From positions 1-7,597 of the forward strand of contig JAJYJL010000344.1 of NCBI GenBank assembly GCA_021789565.1: a DNA stretch of 7,597 bases. The letters run 5' to 3'. The notes beneath the pieces were generated by a model. The model was not told the origin of the DNA. It did no database searches and saw nothing but the letters and a program-made list of their open reading frames with translations. Shown here piece by piece: positions 1 through 7,597 of the stretch. Source of the stretch: Acidobacteriota bacterium. GTDB taxonomy: Bacteria > Acidobacteriota > Terriglobia > UBA7540. Each line of letters opens with the position of its first letter. The stretch's first letter is position 1. A program made the translations under genes and the position numbers.

Positions 1-290
1 TGCCCGCAGGCGAAGAATCTCAGATACGAGCGACGCCGGTGGGTGACGTGGTCGCGGGTCCTTCCGCACAGCATCCCATACCGCGCCCCCAGCGCATCGA
101 GGACCCAGCGCAGCGTGACCTCGACCAAGCGGTGGGGCGGGAGGCTGAGATCCCCCGGTTCGAACTGCGGCCAGCCCGGCCGCCCGATCATCTTGCCGGT
201 GACGACCTTCATCTCGATCTTGATCGGGCCAGCGGCTTGGGCCGCGGGCGGCTGCGTGAGGCAGATGCGGACGAATGGAATCTCAAACAT
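1..290 (-). CDS. Hypothetical protein, N-terminal part, runs off left edge
   Basis: I do not recognise this protein. Reading the - strand from an ATG at 290 (start MFEIPFVRICLTQ) gives 96 codons without a stop, continuing past base 1. An in-frame TAG lies just upstream (297-299 on the - strand), so ATG 290 is the first possible start; AGGG about five bases before it is a weak ribosome binding site. Codon third positions are overwhelmingly G or C, and the product has a normal composition (for example the run MKVVTGKMIGRPGWPQFEPG). The + strand reading of the same bases is rich in R, P, D and H, as is usual for the antisense of a GC-rich gene. GC here is about 68%, well above the neighbouring helicase remnant, so it probably belongs to DNA joined next to the pPIWI_RE locus. 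No domain, membrane segment or transposase signature is visible. The alternative is non-coding high-GC sequence. Confidence 0.4.
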   Translation of the reverse strand, partial: MFEIPFVRICLTQPPAAQAAGPIKIEMKVVTGKMIGRPGWPQFEPGDLSLPPHRLVEVTLRWVLDALGARYGMLCGRTRDHVTHRRRSYLRFFACG

Positions 291-1634
291 AACACCCTAC
301 AAACTGCCGTGGACCGAGTCCACTTTCTCGTCCAAAGCCAGCCCCCAATCCGGGATGGGCAGTATTTTACCCAGTTGTACCTGTTGAAGCAGTTGGCACT
401 CCTCTTGAGCGGAGGAAATCCCGACAGCCCCGAATACCGATTTCTCGAAGAACAAATGTTTTCGCCCTTTCGCGATGACCCCTTCGGCGAACATACACGC
501 ACGGACCTCAGCGATTTGGCGATGAGCATGCTCAGCATCGCTGGAGACGCTCTTCATGTTCGTACCCGCGAATGGCTGGCGAAGCATTCCCCAGCCACAT
601 TCTGGCAGAACGCTGATGAGGGGGCCAAGAAACGAGCGGTCGAGTTGCTGGAATTTGCAGTGGCCACGACCATTCTGACGAACCGCATTGACGATGTGTT
701 GCACGACTGGCAGAGCATCGAACACTCACTCGACCTAGAGGGAACAGGGAAGCGTCAACTGGGCGCCCTTCCCGAGGATTTCATTCCTTTCATGCCTACG
801 TCCCCCATGGGGAATGTGCTGGCGCTGCAGTTCGTCCCAACGCATGGACATCATTCGAATGAGCGCACTTTGCGTTTCTTCCACTGCGGCGGCATCGGAC
901 GCTGGCTTCTCCTTCATTTCCATGAATTGATGGCAGCAGATGGAATTGCCGGGCCGCATGTGTTACTCATGTCCGGATCGTCCTGGTCCGGACCATCACG
1001 CTATGATCTTCTGGTCCCAGTCACAGGTGTTATGCGCCCATCCGCCGATCAGATTGCCGGCATCGAGCAATCTACGTTTCGCTTCGAGTGGTTATCCGAC
1101 CCGGAGACTCACCTGCCGATCCAGGTCTCCGGCAAGGAAGGAGACGATCGGCTCCGCGCACTGGGCACGATTCTGTATCAATTGGTTCGAGGCGGGGGAC
1201 TCGACGGGACAGGTCCTAGCCGCCTTGAGCTTGATGCTCAAGCGCTGCCGCCGCACCGGCGCAAAATCGCCCTAATCGTCGGAAGCTACGCGGAAGCGGA
1301 TGCCGTCACCCGCAAGCTTTACGAACTCCGGCCGGACTGGAAGAAAGACGAGGTCGTCGTTCCCGTAGCTCCAGACGATGATCCATTGGACGGATCGCCA
1401 CTTCCTTGGATCCGTCGAGGTATGTTATATCGATTCCGGGATCGAACCACCAGTTGGATTCTGGTGACCCCACTCATGGCGTTCGAACGGGGACACAATA
1501 TTCTGAATGAGGACGACGTCGCCGCTCTGGGTGCGGTTTATTTCCTGATTCGACCCCACCAGCGCCCGGACGATATTTCCCCGATCATCGCGGGGATTAA
1601 CCGTTGGGGGCTGGAACACGGTGACGACAAGTGG

Positions 1635-1637
1635 TGA
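1635..1637 (+). other. In-frame TGA inside the helicase gene
   Basis: The codon follows ...GDDKW (TGG at 1632-1634) and precedes AQQDTLVHGRVAEAV. The frame before and after is the same (39, 1635, 1806 and 2082 are all in phase), no other stop occurs up to TGA 2082-2084, and the downstream part contains the expected motif VI. It is therefore a point nonsense change, not a frameshift. A single base change from TGG (W), CGA (R), GGA (G) or TCA (S) would produce it. A sequencing error, or stop readthrough, cannot be excluded. Confidence 0.85.
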
Positions 1638-2051
1638 GCTCAACAAGATACGCTGGTACACGGGCGGGTCGCCGAAGCGGTTGTCCGTTTCCGCCAGGAG
1701 GCGTTCGCCGAATGGCGCCGCCGACTGAATCGCCCCGTATCGTTTAGCCACATCCCCCCGACCTCACCTGAGCACGCCGAGGCGGTTTGGAACCAACTCG
1801 TCCCCATGTGGCAGGTGATCGGGCGCGCAGTCCGCGGGGGTCAGAGTGCGCGGGTATATTTTGTGGATGCCGCCTTTGCCCCGCGCACCGCGCGGAACGA
1901 GATCCCTGCAGATGACATTCAATCTAGTCTGCTCTTGGCGATGCGTGCTCAACTTCGTTCGTATTTCGATCCTAACTCTCGGCGACCCGCGCGTGATCGC
2001 GCCCTCGCCGAGGCGCTCTACCGTCCTCTTTATCTCGCACTCAAGAACATC

Positions 2052-2057
2052 GGAGGG
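2052..2057 (+). promoter_or_regulatory. Ribosome binding site of the pPIWI_RE gene
   Basis: GGAGGG lies 7 bases before ATG 2065 and inside the last helicase codons. It decides the start: the frame is open back to 1846, but the 73 extra codons lie over real helicase coding sequence and have no comparable site. Translation reaching the helicase end would pass directly over it, as in coupled gene pairs. Confidence 0.8.
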
Positions 2058-2064
2058 TTGCCCC

Positions 2065-4761
2065 ATGACAAAGACGAAATATGACCATGTGCAGACCTTA
2101 GCCTGGGTCCTCACCGGAGCAGACATGCCCCGGTCGATTCAAAGACTCGCGTTACCCGAGGAATGGAGGCACCTCCTCAATCGGTTATGGACGGAAATCA
2201 AGCGGGATATTGAAGACGACGCGGAAATCGCGGACGAGACCGAAATGTATTCTTTTCCGGTCACCAGTCTCAACGCGACGCTTCGCGCCACAATGAGCGA
2301 TTTGGTGTCTATTCGCAAAGGGGTGGCTTCCCCACCCCGACCGGGCGATTCATCAAACCAGTGGCTCCTGAGCCATGAGCCCATTGACCCCGAGCTTTTG
2401 GCCCTGGTTGTTAAGGAATGGGCGCGCGTGACCTTTAAGCATGCGAGCGTGACCAGTCGTCATCACCTCATGGACCGATTGGACTCTTCCGACTTACGTT
2501 GGAAGCCCGAAACCGTGAACCTCGCACAGTGTGGAACCGCTCCGAATGGCACCGCCGATCCCTCACAGGTGCATTTCAGTTTGTTGCCGGATTGGATTGC
2601 GAACCGGCTCACGCAGCCCGATGTCGTTCTACAGTTGGGTGAGAGGCCACTCCGGTTCTGCCGTTGCGCCAGTCCCGAAGACGGGGGAGCCGAGATCATT
2701 TCATGGGAACCATTCAGGTACGGAGACGACTGGCCGTTCTCGGTGCTTCTCACCTTTACGGTTCAGACAGTGCCGTTCCAACCTTATCCCGTCATCCATT
2801 GCGATGTGGGCATCCGTCGCTGGGCTGGACGCAAGGTCACCTGGACGGGCACCGCCGGAGACGCGACCACCGTGTACTTGCGATCAAAGGTAGGATGGCT
2901 GCCCGGTGAACATCGCGACTGCTTTGTGACGGCGAGCATGAAATGGTATCAAGGGGGCATGGCGTGGAGTGACCATTTGGCAGAAATTCTAGACCACTTG
3001 ACGCCGCTTCAACCCAAATATCCCTCGGCTCAGGGGCTGTTGGCCGAACCCGCGTATTGGTTGAATTTCGGCAATCCCATTGCGGCCGTCGTTTTCGATC
3101 AGGGGATGCACTTTGAAAACGGGGACAACGGGACGGGACATGAGGTGGAGGCGGGCATCAGTGTCTTCGATCGCTACCGAATTGCAGACCAAATCGTGCC
3201 TTATCTGAAGCCCTACTTGGATTTTGCTCCGGAACTTGCCAGAGCGCCTCAGGTTCGCTGTACGAAAAGCAACCGCCTTTTTCAAAAGGACTGGGCTCAT
3301 CCCAAGGATGATAAGGAGGCAGTCAGCTTCGGCAAAGCGATGGAAGAAGAGATGATGCCGCGCCAGAATGCCATCGCAGCAGCACTGGACAGTTCTCCCC
3401 TTACGGTGGAACTTTGGACGCAGGATGAAAAGGGCGAGATCGCCCGTGAAATGAAAGCCATCGTTGCGGGGAATTTGGGCGAAGGGCGCGATTCAAGTAT
3501 CCGTTATCGAACCCGATCACTCGGTGCGATAGGGCGCGAACTGGAAGTAAAGAGCAGAGAAAGGTACACGTCAGGGACTGACGTCCGGGCGGCGATCGAG
3601 CAGCGCGTCCGCGAAATCGAAGGACATCTTTCACCCTTTTCAGGTCCAACCTTAGCTATCATCGAAATCCAACCACGTCGCGACTTCGATCCTCGAAAGC
3701 ACACTGACCCCAAAGCCGCCCTCCGGATCGGTGCCGCAAGACGCGGTTGCCATTCGCAGTTTATCACCACCAGTACCAAGGTCGTCGCCGAGCGTTGCTT
3801 CTCTGCCCTGCGGGACGGACTGCGCCAATTAGGCGTCGTGGGAGAGCTGCCCACTGTCGCGTCAGCCGATTTTCCCGCCCCTGTACACTACGTCGGGATA
3901 TGGCTGGCTAACATGCAGCGGCGCGGCAGCCCCACACTCAAGGCGGTGCGCGTTCCGATTGCGGTCCATTTGCGTTCGGATGGACAGGGTGGTATTCGAG
4001 TGAAAGTACCTGGCTTCGACCGGTGGTATGGCTACCGCGAGGCACAACTTTTGCTTGCCACAGACCAGTATCACAACCTGGTCGGCGAGAAAGGTCAGAA
4101 GGAGACGACAGTTACCGTTGCTAGCTTCGTCCGAGAGTTACTCTCGCAGGACCTGCGGGCCCTCAATGAGCCTGTCCTGCTAATGGTAAATGCTCATAAC
4201 CTGCGCGGGCGGCATGCGTGGTCTTGGCTGCAAAACCCACAAATCACGCAGGACCGTATCGCCTTTGGCGCCGAGGAGCCGGTGCCCGTCAGCGAGAACT
4301 GGCCTAACCTGCGCATCGCGCGCATTCGCGGTGCCGACCGCCACGAGACTCCCGAATGGTATGCGGAAGACGCGGACGACGAAATGCGGGGAAATTCGAC
4401 TGGGCTATGGGTCATGGGAGACCGCGTATTTGCATCGACTGCGCAGAAGCCAGCCCAATTCAGAAGGTTCATAGATCGCAGCTCCAAGATATCGGCGTGG
4501 ACGGACCGCAATGGCAGAAGCTACGAGCCTCGGCCTTTTCGATACGCCTGGAATCCCGTTCTCTATGAGATTACCCTCCCGTGTCTTCAACCCGGAGACG
4601 ATCCAGTTGCATGGGCCACCTTGGTTCATCGGCTTCGCGACACGGCGATCCAGTTTAATGAGGCGACCGCGCTCCCCCTGCCGCTGCACCTCGCCCAGAA
4701 GATTGAAGAGTATGTATTGCCACGGAATCCGAAGCCGTTAGCTGGCGAGCGAGCTCATTGA
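2065..4761 (+). CDS. pPIWI_RE family PIWI/Argonaute-like protein
   Basis: This 898-residue protein is the core of a pPIWI_RE system, a bacterial PIWI-superfamily branch predicted to use a nucleic-acid guide or to recognise R-loops of invading plasmids or phages. Three family regions are seen in order. The N-terminal pPIWI_RE module (about 1-480) carries FTVQTVPFQ at 231-239 and GIRRW at 249-253. The MID-like domain (about 520-600) carries IEIQP at 533-537, DPKAALRIG at 548-556 and SQFITT at 564-569. The RNase H-like PIWI domain (about 620-890) carries RVPIAVHLRSDG at 629-640, VNAHNLRGRHAWSWLQ at 708-723, RIARIRG...HETPEW at 750-765, STGLW at 778-782, WNPVLYEI at 829-836 and ATALPLPLHLAQ at 867-878. 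Length and domain order fit a complete member. The R and E that name the family probably lie in the 750-765 segment; this is inference. A full acidic catalytic set is not obvious: D639 and D667 are only candidates, so nuclease activity is uncertain. There is no signal peptide or membrane segment, so it should be cytoplasmic. No frameshift or stop is present, unlike the helicase just upstream. Confidence 0.88.
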   Translation: MTKTKYDHVQTLAWVLTGADMPRSIQRLALPEEWRHLLNRLWTEIKRDIEDDAEIADETEMYSFPVTSLNATLRATMSDLVSIRKGVASPPRPGDSSNQWLLSHEPIDPELLALVVKEWARVTFKHASVTSRHHLMDRLDSSDLRWKPETVNLAQCGTAPNGTADPSQVHFSLLPDWIANRLTQPDVVLQLGERPLRFCRCASPEDGGAEIISWEPFRYGDDWPFSVLLTFTVQTVPFQPYPVIHCDVGIRRWAGRKVTWTGTAGDATTVYLRSKVGWLPGEHRDCFVTASMKWYQGGMAWSDHLAEILDHLTPLQPKYPSAQGLLAEPAYWLNFGNPIAAVVFDQGMHFENGDNGTGHEVEAGISVFDRYRIADQIVPYLKPYLDFAPELARAPQVRCTKSNRLFQKDWAHPKDDKEAVSFGKAMEEEMMPRQNAIAAALDSSPLTVELWTQDEKGEIAREMKAIVAGNLGEGRDSSIRYRTRSLGAIGRELEVKSRERYTSGTDVRAAIEQRVREIEGHLSPFSGPTLAIIEIQPRRDFDPRKHTDPKAALRIGAARRGCHSQFITTSTKVVAERCFSALRDGLRQLGVVGELPTVASADFPAPVHYVGIWLANMQRRGSPTLKAVRVPIAVHLRSDGQGGIRVKVPGFDRWYGYREAQLLLATDQYHNLVGEKGQKETTVTVASFVRELLSQDLRALNEPVLLMVNAHNLRGRHAWSWLQNPQITQDRIAFGAEEPVPVSENWPNLRIARIRGADRHETPEWYAEDADDEMRGNSTGLWVMGDRVFASTAQKPAQFRRFIDRSSKISAWTDRNGRSYEPRPFRYAWNPVLYEITLPCLQPGDDPVAWATLVHRLRDTAIQFNEATALPLPLHLAQKIEEYVLPRNPKPLAGERAH

Positions 4762-4785
4762 GACAAATCGTTCTGGCAAGTTGGC

Positions 4786-4815
4786 TTGGCGTGGTGAGGC
4801 AAAAGTCTGTACAAT
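4786..4815 (+). promoter_or_regulatory. Possible sigma70 promoter for the two downstream genes
   Basis: TTGGCG at 4786-4791 (4 of 6 to TTGACA) and TACAAT at 4810-4815 (5 of 6 to TATAAT) are separated by 18 bases, within the 140-base gap after the pPIWI_RE gene. Transcription would begin near 4822 and give a leader of about 80 bases before ATG 4902. The match is only visual. If real, the next two genes form their own transcription unit. Confidence 0.4.
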
Positions 4816-4887
4816 ACTATCGACAAACCCAGATGGCATAGGTGGTTCGCGTTCGAGCCGGTAAAGCATATTTCTCTCTAGGCGGAC

Positions 4888-4894
4888 AAGGGGG
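4888..4894 (+). promoter_or_regulatory. Ribosome binding site deciding the start at 4902
   Basis: AAGGGGG lies 7 bases before ATG 4902. The frame also has GTG at 4842, which would add 20 residues but has no purine-rich site at a suitable distance. Confidence 0.7.
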
Positions 4895-4901
4895 TTTCTA
4901 C

Positions 4902-5774
4902 ATGACGACTGCTATTCCAGCGTTGCCGGTGGATATTATTCAAACTCGAATAAAGGGCCCTCCCCAGCGTGGGCTGGAGTTGATTTGCCGCGTCAAGAAT
5001 CCGACGAGTTCCGATCTAGCTATTCTCGTGGCATGGATCACTGTGGAGACATTGAACGGTTTGTCTCTGGGTGAGGGATGGCTGTTCCATTCGATGCATA
5101 ACCGGGTGGACCCAGCAATCATTCGCGCCGGTGACAGGGCCGATGGAGCTATCCTGATCGGTCTGCCGGCAACGGTGTTGCATCAGATCGAGGACAGGAG
5201 GCAGGGAAATGACATCGAGTTGCGGATCTCGTCCCGCGTGACCGCATCGATTGTCGAACAAGTCAATGATCGACGGATCTTGGGGTTGCCCTTCGAGACC
5301 AGTTTTGGGCAGCCAACAAATGGCTACCTAGAGTATCGTATCCCTCAATCCGATTGGGTGCAGAACCTGAAAACCCTTGGATGGTCGGAGCTCGAAATTC
5401 TAGAGCTCCCATCCGCCAGACTCCGCGCAGATCCTCGGCTTGGTCGTGCTCTCGGGCGCTTGGAAGATGCGCTCGAGTGTCACCGCCGCGGCGAGTGGGA
5501 AGAGGCCATGGCGAACTGCCGCAAGGCTTTTGAGGCAGTGATGCTGGATGTGAGCGGGAAAGACGATATGAGGCAGGCCAGTGAGGAGACGTTACGTGCC
5601 CTAGTGGGCGATACTCCCAAAGTTGTTCGGCTCAATAAGGTGATTTCCGAACTGAGCAAGTACCTGCATCTAGCGAGACACGAAGCGAGCGAGCCCATAT
5701 TGGTTACACGTGCCGATGCACAACTATCGATTCATTTGACTGCTGCGCTCCTGGATTATCTGGCGAACGCGTGA
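4902..5774 (+). CDS. Unrecognised 290-residue protein with helical, possibly HEPN-like C-terminus
   Basis: I do not recognise a named family. The protein begins MTTAIPALPVDIIQTRIKG. Residues ~1-150 alternate short hydrophobic strands with charged turns and look like a beta-sandwich. YRIPQSDWVQNLKTLGWSE then leads into a helical part. There, RRGEWEEAMANCRKAFEAV (195-213) has the spacing of a paired-helix fold in which cells of A, C and E line one face, and YLHLARHE (254-261) is followed by TRADAQLSIHLTAALLDYLA (269-288), again strongly helical. Such a helical bundle recalls HEPN-like or abortive-infection C-termini, but the typical R-x4-6-H catalytic motif is not clear; R259 and H260 sit too close. 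There is no signal peptide or membrane segment. It sits 140 bases after the pPIWI_RE gene and 99 bases before the predicted nuclease gene, on the same strand, so a shared role in defence is plausible, though this rests on position alone. Start chosen by the AAGGGGG site. Confidence 0.75.
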   Translation: MTTAIPALPVDIIQTRIKGPPQRGLELICRVKNPTSSDLAILVAWITVETLNGLSLGEGWLFHSMHNRVDPAIIRAGDRADGAILIGLPATVLHQIEDRRQGNDIELRISSRVTASIVEQVNDRRILGLPFETSFGQPTNGYLEYRIPQSDWVQNLKTLGWSELEILELPSARLRADPRLGRALGRLEDALECHRRGEWEEAMANCRKAFEAVMLDVSGKDDMRQASEETLRALVGDTPKVVRLNKVISELSKYLHLARHEASEPILVTRADAQLSIHLTAALLDYLANA

Positions 5775-5873
5775 TCAGTATGCCCATGATGTTCAATAGA
5801 CGCGTGCGGAGTAAATGGCGTTACCGGCAACAGATAGAAGGTGCAAACCAGTTAGTGGAGTCATCAACAGAAT

Positions 5874-7484
5874 ATGGGTAGTTCAAACGAAAAGACACTA
5901 AAGTTGATCATCCGCAAAGCCAAGCCCGTCAGCGTGCGCTCGCACCGATACGGCACTATCCGTGTGCGACGGTTGACTTTTGGTGATATGGTTTTCCTGG
6001 AGAGCCTGCTCCACGATGACCTGCCGGCGCGTGACTTTACAGTGAAGCTGATACAGCATCAAGTGTCAGCCCCCCCAGATGCGATGCAGGATGTCCCCCA
6101 TTGGAAGAAACGGTTGCTGCTTCGCGTCGTAAACGCCTGGGTGGAGCGCGACAAGCTTGGTCGGAACGCATCGTCACCAGTCGCAACATGCGATGAATTC
6201 AAGCAGGCCGTCACAGATTACGTGGCGCAGCAACATCGACAAATGCAGGCGGCGATCGAATCCGTTGAGAGGAGTTACCGCGAGACAATTGCGCCAGCGC
6301 TCAGCACTGCCACGTCAAGTCTATCTCGTGTGTCTGACTTGATGGCGAGCAGGCTCGACGCGATATACAAGGACAACCTTATTATCGCGCGCCAAATGGA
6401 CAGCGCTTTTGAATTAGGGGCTGCCTCCAAAATCGGAGAGGCGATGGCGCGTGTTACGATCGATCGTTCGCAGATAGAAAACTTGGAATCCGTGATGACT
6501 CGAATGACCGCTGATATAGTGCCACCTTGGGTCGAGGAAACTAGACTCGCACGTCAGGCGATGGTGGACTCACTGGCATCGTCGGCTCCGGCGTTCAAGG
6601 TCACCAACCAAATGGACCTCCTGTCTCAAAGCATTGAGAAACAACTGATACAGGCCGATGCCTTTCAGCAGGCCGCCTCCGTCTCCTCCCACCTGGCAGA
6701 GGCGGCAAACTGGGCCAAGATGTCGCAGATCACACTCCTCGCAGAAACATCTTTGTCGAAAGTGCAGCCGCCGAACATTGCCAGCCTGCTTAACGTGGAG
6801 CAAGAGCTTCGGGATATTGTACGGGGAGCATTTGCCCAGTTCTCCAGATCCTTTGCCGATTTGTACCAACCGCCCGCGCATTTGCTCCACGGCTCAGTCC
6901 CCTCTAGGAACGTTTTCAGGCTGCCGCCGGTTGAGTATTTCACGGGAGCTCAACTTGTAGAATCGATATCGATCGACGAAGCAATCCGCGATATTACGCC
7001 ACAGCAACAACAGACCAAGGCCGAAATCGCGAGCGAAACCGCGGAATCCCTGCCTGCTCTGTTGGCACAGTTGAACCCCGCGCTTGTGCAGCTTTGGCGG
7101 GGGGCGAAACAAGCACTCAGATCGGATAATCCTGATCGCGTCAGACATTTTGCTATATCAATTCGGGAGTTGACGACACAGGTTTTGCATCTCCTTGCTC
7201 CGGATGATCAGATTCGCGCGTGGAGCAATTCGCCTGATCACTTTAGCCAAGGCCGCCCAACCCGGAGAGCGCGGCTCCAATTCATCTACCGCAAAGTCAC
7301 GAACGACAAGTTCGGCAGCTTTGTGGAAAGCGACATCACCACAGGCCTGGCGCTGCTTGATTTGTTTCAAACGGGAACACACGGAGTCACTGTCGAATAC
7401 ACCCCGGCGCAACTCGATGCCATGGCGCTGAAAATGGATGCCCTTATCCGATTCATCCTCGAAATCTCAGCAGGTAATGGATGA
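5874..7484 (+). CDS. Predicted pPIWI-associating nuclease domain protein
   Basis: The C-terminal ~135 residues of this 536-residue protein resemble the predicted pPIWI-associating nuclease family, which was defined by its neighbourhood to PIWI-like genes. What is seen: NPDRVRHFAISIREL at 419-433, LLAPDDQIRAWS at 440-451, GRPTRRARLQFIYRK at 460-474, FVESDITTGLALLDLF at 483-498 and GTHGV at 501-505. The polar residues R424, H425, R431, R464, R465, R467 and H503 are candidates for the active or RNA-binding site; the assignment is from memory of the family pattern. Residues ~85-400 are long polar helices rich in A, S, Q and E without membrane segments, probably a coiled-coil or sensor region. The first ~75 residues form a separate small region (TIRVRRLTFGDMVFLESLL) that I cannot place. 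ATG 5874 is the first start after an in-frame TAG at 5853; GGAG at 5857-5860 is 13 bases away, longer than ideal, so expression may depend on the gene upstream. The 99-base gap shows no convincing promoter. The gene is intact. Confidence 0.72.
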   Translation: MGSSNEKTLKLIIRKAKPVSVRSHRYGTIRVRRLTFGDMVFLESLLHDDLPARDFTVKLIQHQVSAPPDAMQDVPHWKKRLLLRVVNAWVERDKLGRNASSPVATCDEFKQAVTDYVAQQHRQMQAAIESVERSYRETIAPALSTATSSLSRVSDLMASRLDAIYKDNLIIARQMDSAFELGAASKIGEAMARVTIDRSQIENLESVMTRMTADIVPPWVEETRLARQAMVDSLASSAPAFKVTNQMDLLSQSIEKQLIQADAFQQAASVSSHLAEAANWAKMSQITLLAETSLSKVQPPNIASLLNVEQELRDIVRGAFAQFSRSFADLYQPPAHLLHGSVPSRNVFRLPPVEYFTGAQLVESISIDEAIRDITPQQQQTKAEIASETAESLPALLAQLNPALVQLWRGAKQALRSDNPDRVRHFAISIRELTTQVLHLLAPDDQIRAWSNSPDHFSQGRPTRRARLQFIYRKVTNDKFGSFVESDITTGLALLDLFQTGTHGVTVEYTPAQLDAMALKMDALIRFILEISAGNG

Positions 7485-7597
7485 CCATTCTTCATGCCAG
7501 TCTACGCTAACCAATGCACTCGGTCGTCGGGCAGGCTGATCTGCCAGGATGTCGGCAGCGTTTTGGCGAATCCTGAAATCCAAAGCATACTTGGGAG
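7485..7597. other. Right-hand flank, no decidable gene
   Basis: Two short frames touch the right edge. On the + strand ATG 7494 opens 34 codons to the edge but has no ribosome binding site. On the - strand a frame enters from the edge and ends at TAG 7502-7504 with the tail SWQISLPDDRVHWLA, which could be the end of a convergent gene. The 5-bp stem GGCAG/CTGCC (7530-7534 and 7541-7545) has no T-run after it and is not a terminator. Confidence 0.3.

Follow-up and report, generated by a model that had tools for sequence, protein, structure and literature searches.

Within the Argonaute superfamily, proteins of the pPIWI_RE type form a branch that has received little study. By Burroughs, Iyer and Aravind 2013 (PMC3702460) they were assigned to a three-gene island with the order REase, DinG, pPIWI_RE, for which recognition of RNA-DNA hybrids on invading DNA, unwinding by DinG and cutting by the REase were proposed at the level of the family, phages, plasmids or R-loops being the suggested targets; the same paper describes the catalytic residues as kept in only a subset of the family. 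The triad idea was restated in PMC10573157, in which PIWI-RE proteins are described as being without N and PAZ domains, and PMC7641849 deals with a subject other than this family. The single member with biochemistry among the literature searched, PsPIWI-RE from Pseudomonas stutzeri, is a slicer, and its catalytic acids, D525 and D610, were established by mutation (PMC10991935). No laboratory test of a non-slicing triad member was found among the open-licence papers searched.

The locus analysed here (the “window”, the whole stretch of 7,597 nucleotides) encodes a protein which shares the X, MID and RNase H domains with the published island (Burroughs et al. 2013; PprRE/PprDinG/PprPIWI in PADLOC), but it differs from that island in having a DinG remnant, no REase within its 7,597 bases, and three HEPN/pnuc-type genes downstream. 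Our preferred reading, to which we assign a probability of about 0.6, is that the pPIWI_RE protein is a sensor that binds a guide and does not cut, that it stems from a canonical triad put out of action here by a recent loss of the helicase, and that the gene is most likely a leftover of a defence island at an early stage of decay.

The pPIWI_RE gene and its product

The pPIWI_RE gene occupied positions 2065..4761 (plus strand) as one unbroken frame of 898 residues, in agreement with the sequence-only reading, which had called the protein intact. A Shine-Dalgarno-like GGAGGG (2052..2057, plus strand), read from the sequence, preceded it, and the first 20 bases of the gene were shared with the end of the DinG remnant. 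In a profile search of the 898-residue protein, the Pfam models for pPIWI_RE_X (2101..3276, residues 13-404), MID (3571..3846, residues 503-594) and PIWI/RNase H (3889..4722, residues 609-886), all on the plus strand, matched in this order, each above the Pfam cut-off. The structure model of the protein aligned to Argonautes in a structure comparison, with the RNase H domain at residues 609-886; a sequence search for a solved relative gave none (best E 0.7).

Two marks of the family were found. In the modelled PIWI domain, three strands (608-616, 629-637 and 645-647) were followed by helices at 657-665 and 668-673, which make up the extra helical element after the three-stranded meander, and by a long helix at 680-699. 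The conserved R and E of the beta-sheet extension were also present: R753 and E835 were invariant in 24 of 24 aligned pPIWI_RE proteins and R755 was found in 23, the family R being either R753 or R755. The 24 proteins, some of them near-identical, comprised the 18 of alignment A1 (window included), for which 5 of the 6 database homologues were used and the 503-residue fragment P0005 was left out, and 6 plasmid proteins. Both the profiles and the modelled Argonaute fold bear out the earlier assignment to the pPIWI_RE family, and the product of 2065-4761 is a new member of this known family, with nothing outside the known kind. No structured RNA was detected in the window at the gathering threshold.

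A relative with the complete triad

The sole relative in the close-relative scan (one genome per GTDB species) was a contig of a Chloroflexota metagenome-assembled genome, JAMDCU010000131.1 (L001), which was 93.7% identical to positions 229-7597 of the window, with three gap positions (4763, 4873 and 4874), between the pPIWI_RE gene and position 4902. It carried the complete triad on one strand: REase (5535-6653; pPIWI_RE_Y, E 2.2e-27; pPIWI_RE_REase, E 3.8e-26), DinG (6607-10020, 1137 residues; pPIWI_RE_Z, E 7.2e-31; PprDinG, E 2.3e-186) and pPIWI_RE (10001-12697), followed by genes for a 290-residue protein, a 536-residue pP_pnuc_1 protein and an AbiU2-type HEPN protein. The triad frames overlap, and their order is the one given for the island in PMC3702460. 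The derivation of the window locus from a REase/DinG/pPIWI_RE triad, as the sequence-only reading had it, was thereby upheld.

Upstream of the REase, and on the same strand, L001 encoded a HATPase/STAS-like protein (3784-4677) and an HTH-like protein (4735-5316), both with Pfam matches below the cut-off, which could regulate the island; tblastn (E 0.01) did not find these two genes in 12 other triad loci (described below). Mismatches between the window and L001, counted per 200 bases, were unevenly spread: 15-18 at 229-828, 1-7 at 829-3428 and 16-39 at 5629-7428. Such a mosaic suggests recombination within the island, the pP_pnuc_1 gene being the most diverged.

The damaged DinG gene and the left edge of the window

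The frame upstream of pPIWI_RE (229..2084, plus strand) was the C-terminal half of a DinG gene, equivalent to residues 521-1137 of the L001 protein, and was interrupted by an in-frame TGA (1635..1637, plus strand) where the L001 copy is intact; the two pieces matched PprDinG of PADLOC with E 2.2e-65 and 6.6e-17. According to the alignment, residues 1-520 of 1137 (L001 numbering) are gone, and with them Walker A at 281-288 (G281-K287), the cysteines C371, C393, C423 and C429, and the DEAD box (D481-E482). G281, G286, K287, the four cysteines, D481, E482 and D484 were invariant in 10 aligned DinG proteins (L001 and nine others; L027, L029 and L030 were left out, their contigs cutting the gene). 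A complete DinG-type helicase was thus encoded in L001 and not in the window, and no REase gene, present in L001, was found within window positions 1-7597. The earlier description of the locus as a defence island that “acts, or acted” therefore stands for its origin in the triad and not for a working island: with DinG truncated, carrying a stop and lacking the ATPase motifs of its N-terminal half, and with no REase in the window, “acted” is the better word. That description was silent on the adjoining damaged helicase frame and on the absent catalytic residues of the PIWI domain.

Comparison of the window with L001 gave dN/dS ratios of 0.055 and 0.120 (the two DinG pieces), 0.141 (the 290-residue gene), 0.195 (pPIWI_RE) and 0.274 (the pP_pnuc_1 gene), and no alignment gap fell inside any compared gene. 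Because the DinG ratios are low and the alignment gapless, the loss of DinG must, judging from this comparison, be recent, the gene having been under constraint for most of the divergence between the two loci. The pPIWI_RE gene itself showed no sign of decay: at its 31 differences from L001, the commoner residue, judged on 22 other pPIWI_RE proteins, was in the window in 17 cases and in L001 in 9, with 5 ties, which counts against the whole island being dead.

Positions 1..228 (minus strand) did not belong to the island and probably held a portion of some small gene; this sequence met DinG in mid-frame at about position 229, where the alignment to L001 began; bases 1-228 were unrelated to L001. 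The minus-strand frame was open, with a third-position GC of 0.89. Its residues 36-75 matched Chloroflexota genomes, the strongest group (best E 5.8e-12), and at a loose E of 0.1 the protein search matched 124 of 350 Chloroflexota genomes, many of them probably by chance. The matching stretch was readable in 4 of 8 translated loci (L065, L066, L068 and L069), the other four having been read in an evidently wrong frame. We take the frame to belong to a family of ThiS/MoaD look, a weak label (Pfam E 0.15 on the relative L069; no Pfam match on the window 1-228 piece or on L066). A member of a small family of this look, which quite a few Chloroflexota genomes carry, adjoins the broken DinG gene. 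Against plasmids, positions 1-228 gave no tblastn match and, by blastn, only short matches of 22-44 bases; against the L001 genome, no DNA match better than E 0.028 and no protein match at E 0.1 was obtained; in viral contigs there was no exact 39-base match.

Since the foreign piece is coding-like and has Chloroflexota relatives, the join would have arisen either when a Chloroflexota chromosome was rearranged or when two contigs were wrongly assembled into one. The second possibility is the main rival to our reading: the left 228 bases would come from a chimera of two Chloroflexota contigs, the stop would be a base-call error, and the real locus would have an intact triad as L001 does. We regard this as possible though on balance doubtful. 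It fits a join that falls in the middle of a gene near the window edge, a GC content of 0.675 in the foreign piece vs. 0.55-0.58 in the genes, the lack of a good match in the L001 genome, and a DinG gene that is otherwise strongly constrained. However, DinG has two separate lesions, whereas the three whole genes downstream, 1,724 codons in all, are free of them, which favours real decay, and the coding-like character and same-phylum relatives of the foreign piece are what a true rearrangement would also give.

Guide pocket and catalytic positions

The 5'-phosphate pocket of the Thermus thermophilus Argonaute is formed by R418, K422, Q433 and K457, spaced 4, 11 and 24 residues apart. This resembles the spacing of 4, 11 and 22 of K550, R554, Q565 and R587, which are kept in the MID domain of the window protein. 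Among the 24 aligned proteins, E534, R554, D584 and R587 were invariant, as were R753 and E835, while K550 was found in 21 and Q565 in 22. The catalytic acids of the RNase H domain, on the other hand, were missing. The first strand (608-616 in the model) reads HYVGIWLAN, and no acidic residue was found there in any of the 24 proteins; the fourth strand ends at 709 in the model (VLLMVN), which makes Asn709 the second catalytic position, acidic in 10 of the 24 proteins and N in the window protein. The aspartate pair corresponding to D525 and D610 of PsPIWI-RE was thus absent, the equivalence having been placed by topology. With the pocket residues kept and the acids missing, the protein probably can bind a guide and should not slice, a prediction that rests on the alignment and, for slicing, also on the topology of the model.

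Catalytically inactive long Argonautes of the RsAgo type are guide-directed binders. The window protein differs from them in its pPIWI_RE-specific X domain, in the extra helices after the first three strands and in having DinG and REase as partners. With PsPIWI-RE (PMC10991935) it shares the family, the conserved R and E (R755 and E835 are 80 residues apart vs. 79 for R639 and E718 of PsPIWI-RE) and a neighbouring DinG helicase; PsPIWI-RE, however, cuts by means of D525 and D610, whereas in the window protein the first RNase H strand is without an acid and position 709 is an asparagine.

Genes downstream of pPIWI_RE

Three further genes followed on the plus strand. The first (4902..5774) encoded a 290-residue protein, the C-terminal part of which was HEPN/Abi_C-like (Pfam HEPN E 0.039, below the cut-off); a precomputed PF14355 annotation was found on the identical database protein and on some relatives. 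It matched 49 database proteins, itself included, and had weak relatives in six other Chloroflexota genomes. The second gene (5874..7484) encoded a 536-residue protein with a C-terminal pP_pnuc_1 domain (residues 398-506; PF18165, E 1.6e-28), labelled “predicted pPIWI-associating nuclease” in Pfam; its model was helical, with no clear fold match. The third (7494..7597), cut by the end of the window, was recognised by alignment to L001 as the start of an AbiU2-like HEPN gene: its 34-residue piece gave no Pfam match, and the whole L001 gene matched HEPN_AbiU2 with E 9.9e-8. Gaps of 140 bases (pPIWI_RE to the 290-residue gene) and 99 bases (from there to the pP_pnuc_1 gene) separated the genes, with no overlaps. 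One sigma-70-like site (4786-4815) was found within 4600-6000 and carries no weight, since 0.9 were expected in that range.

The neighbourhood of pP_pnuc_1 was viewed in 8 of 11 genomes. In the locus L047 (983-3441), from a Chloroflexota genome without a PF13032 match, a pP_pnuc_1 protein 31% identical to that of the window over almost the full length (residues 21-532) was encoded ahead of an RNase H gene on the same strand (PF00075, E 8.2e-44). No literature joining pPIWI, nuclease and HEPN was found among open-licence papers.

Distribution in Chloroflexota and on plasmids

In an evenly drawn set of 400 Chloroflexota genomes, PF13032 was found in 13, that of L001 included, and PF18165 exceeded its cut-off in 7 (11 at E 0.001). 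The L001 genome was the only one with both, and the chance of at least one shared genome, taking the 7, is 0.21. Beside L001, 12 loci were compared (set aside were L010, which equals L001, L011-L022, which repeat L024-L035 in shorter form, and L023, where one genome gave a second match that was weak and broken). DinG was directly upstream of pPIWI_RE in all 12, and the REase was present in the same order in 9, the contigs of the remaining 3 ending inside DinG. Among the 9 full triads, the DinG and pPIWI_RE frames overlapped in 8 and were 20 bases apart in one (longest-frame starts), and the next ORF after pPIWI_RE was on the opposite strand in 7 (simple ORF caller). No tail gene was found beside the 12 triads by tblastn (E 0.01), over stretches from about 1 kb (L024) to about 9 kb beyond pPIWI_RE. 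Given this, and the single genome shared by PF18165 and PF13032, the tail genes of the window are best regarded as having come to lie beside the triad within a defence island.

These figures also bear on another explanation, in which a non-slicing pPIWI_RE freed of DinG and REase would be a selected sensor, with the HEPN/Abi_C-like, pP_pnuc_1 and AbiU2 proteins as effectors of a guide-triggered abortive infection. The four genes do share a strand, those that are whole are undamaged and under constraint (dN/dS 0.14-0.27), pPIWI_RE is undecayed, and PF18165 is described by Pfam as pPIWI-associating. We nevertheless consider such rewiring very improbable: the two profiles (13/400 and 7/400) meet only in the L001 genome (chance 0.21); tblastn found no tail gene in the stretches covered beside the 12 other triads, and in 7 of the 9 full ones the next ORF runs the other way; the genes are separated by gaps instead of overlapping; and the relative of the 290-residue protein in G229, the genome which also has a pPIWI_RE, is weak and on a contig apart from it.

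Relatives of pPIWI_RE were also found on 9 plasmid records. In each of the six of these loci that were examined, two genes of REase and DinG size, recognised by size and position and not by profile, were directly upstream. On a Streptomyces linear plasmid (L072 8624-10377), the gene after pPIWI_RE overlapped its end, and behind it, in the same orientation, came an Mrr-type restriction endonuclease gene (Mrr_cat, E 2.4e-20), the product of which may be an additional nuclease partner. On cyanobacterial plasmids the neighbours of pPIWI_RE included an integrase (L070 and L071), ParA (L071) and ParA with ParB (L074); the plasmid of L070 was typed as conjugative. Plasmid-borne copies of a supposed anti-plasmid system deserve a look. 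A viral or phage origin was considered and rejected: no relative was found in viral contigs (close-relative scan) or in 50,697 phage records, and none of five proteins had a PHROG.

The distribution is relevant, too, to a role of pPIWI_RE triads in the replication or repair of DNA, such as was put forward for the P. stutzeri protein. In PMC10991935, deletion of the slicer PsPIWI-RE led to ciprofloxacin sensitivity and filaments and not to a phage resistance phenotype, so that a role in replication may exist, and DinG is cited in PMC3702460 as acting on R-loops. Nonetheless, the patchy occurrence in Chloroflexota (13/400), the carriage on plasmids (9 records) and the neighbours of abortive-infection type fit a mobile defence element better, and we judge a house-keeping role unlikely.

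Discussion

The reading that we prefer, a non-cutting sensor left behind by a recently disabled triad, implies the following chain of events. In an intact island such as that of L001, pPIWI_RE would hold a short guide by its 5' end and would recognise, and leave uncut, a nucleic acid complementary to the guide (on incoming DNA, probably as an RNA-DNA hybrid); it would then recruit DinG for unwinding and the REase for cutting. With a PIWI protein that does not slice, only the REase could supply the cut. In the genome of the window, this chain would have been broken by the recent loss of the helicase motor, and the pPIWI_RE gene would be what was left over.

An intact pPIWI_RE gene alone should accordingly not be counted as a working system. 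The window and L001 form a natural pair, the same island without and with its helicase motor, and both with a PIWI protein predicted not to slice. Such a pair makes the model of 2013 testable, for if the PIWI protein only senses, the REase must cut; for the pPIWI_RE family, the value of the locus lies in the intact and broken copies and in a PIWI protein predicted to have lost slicing.
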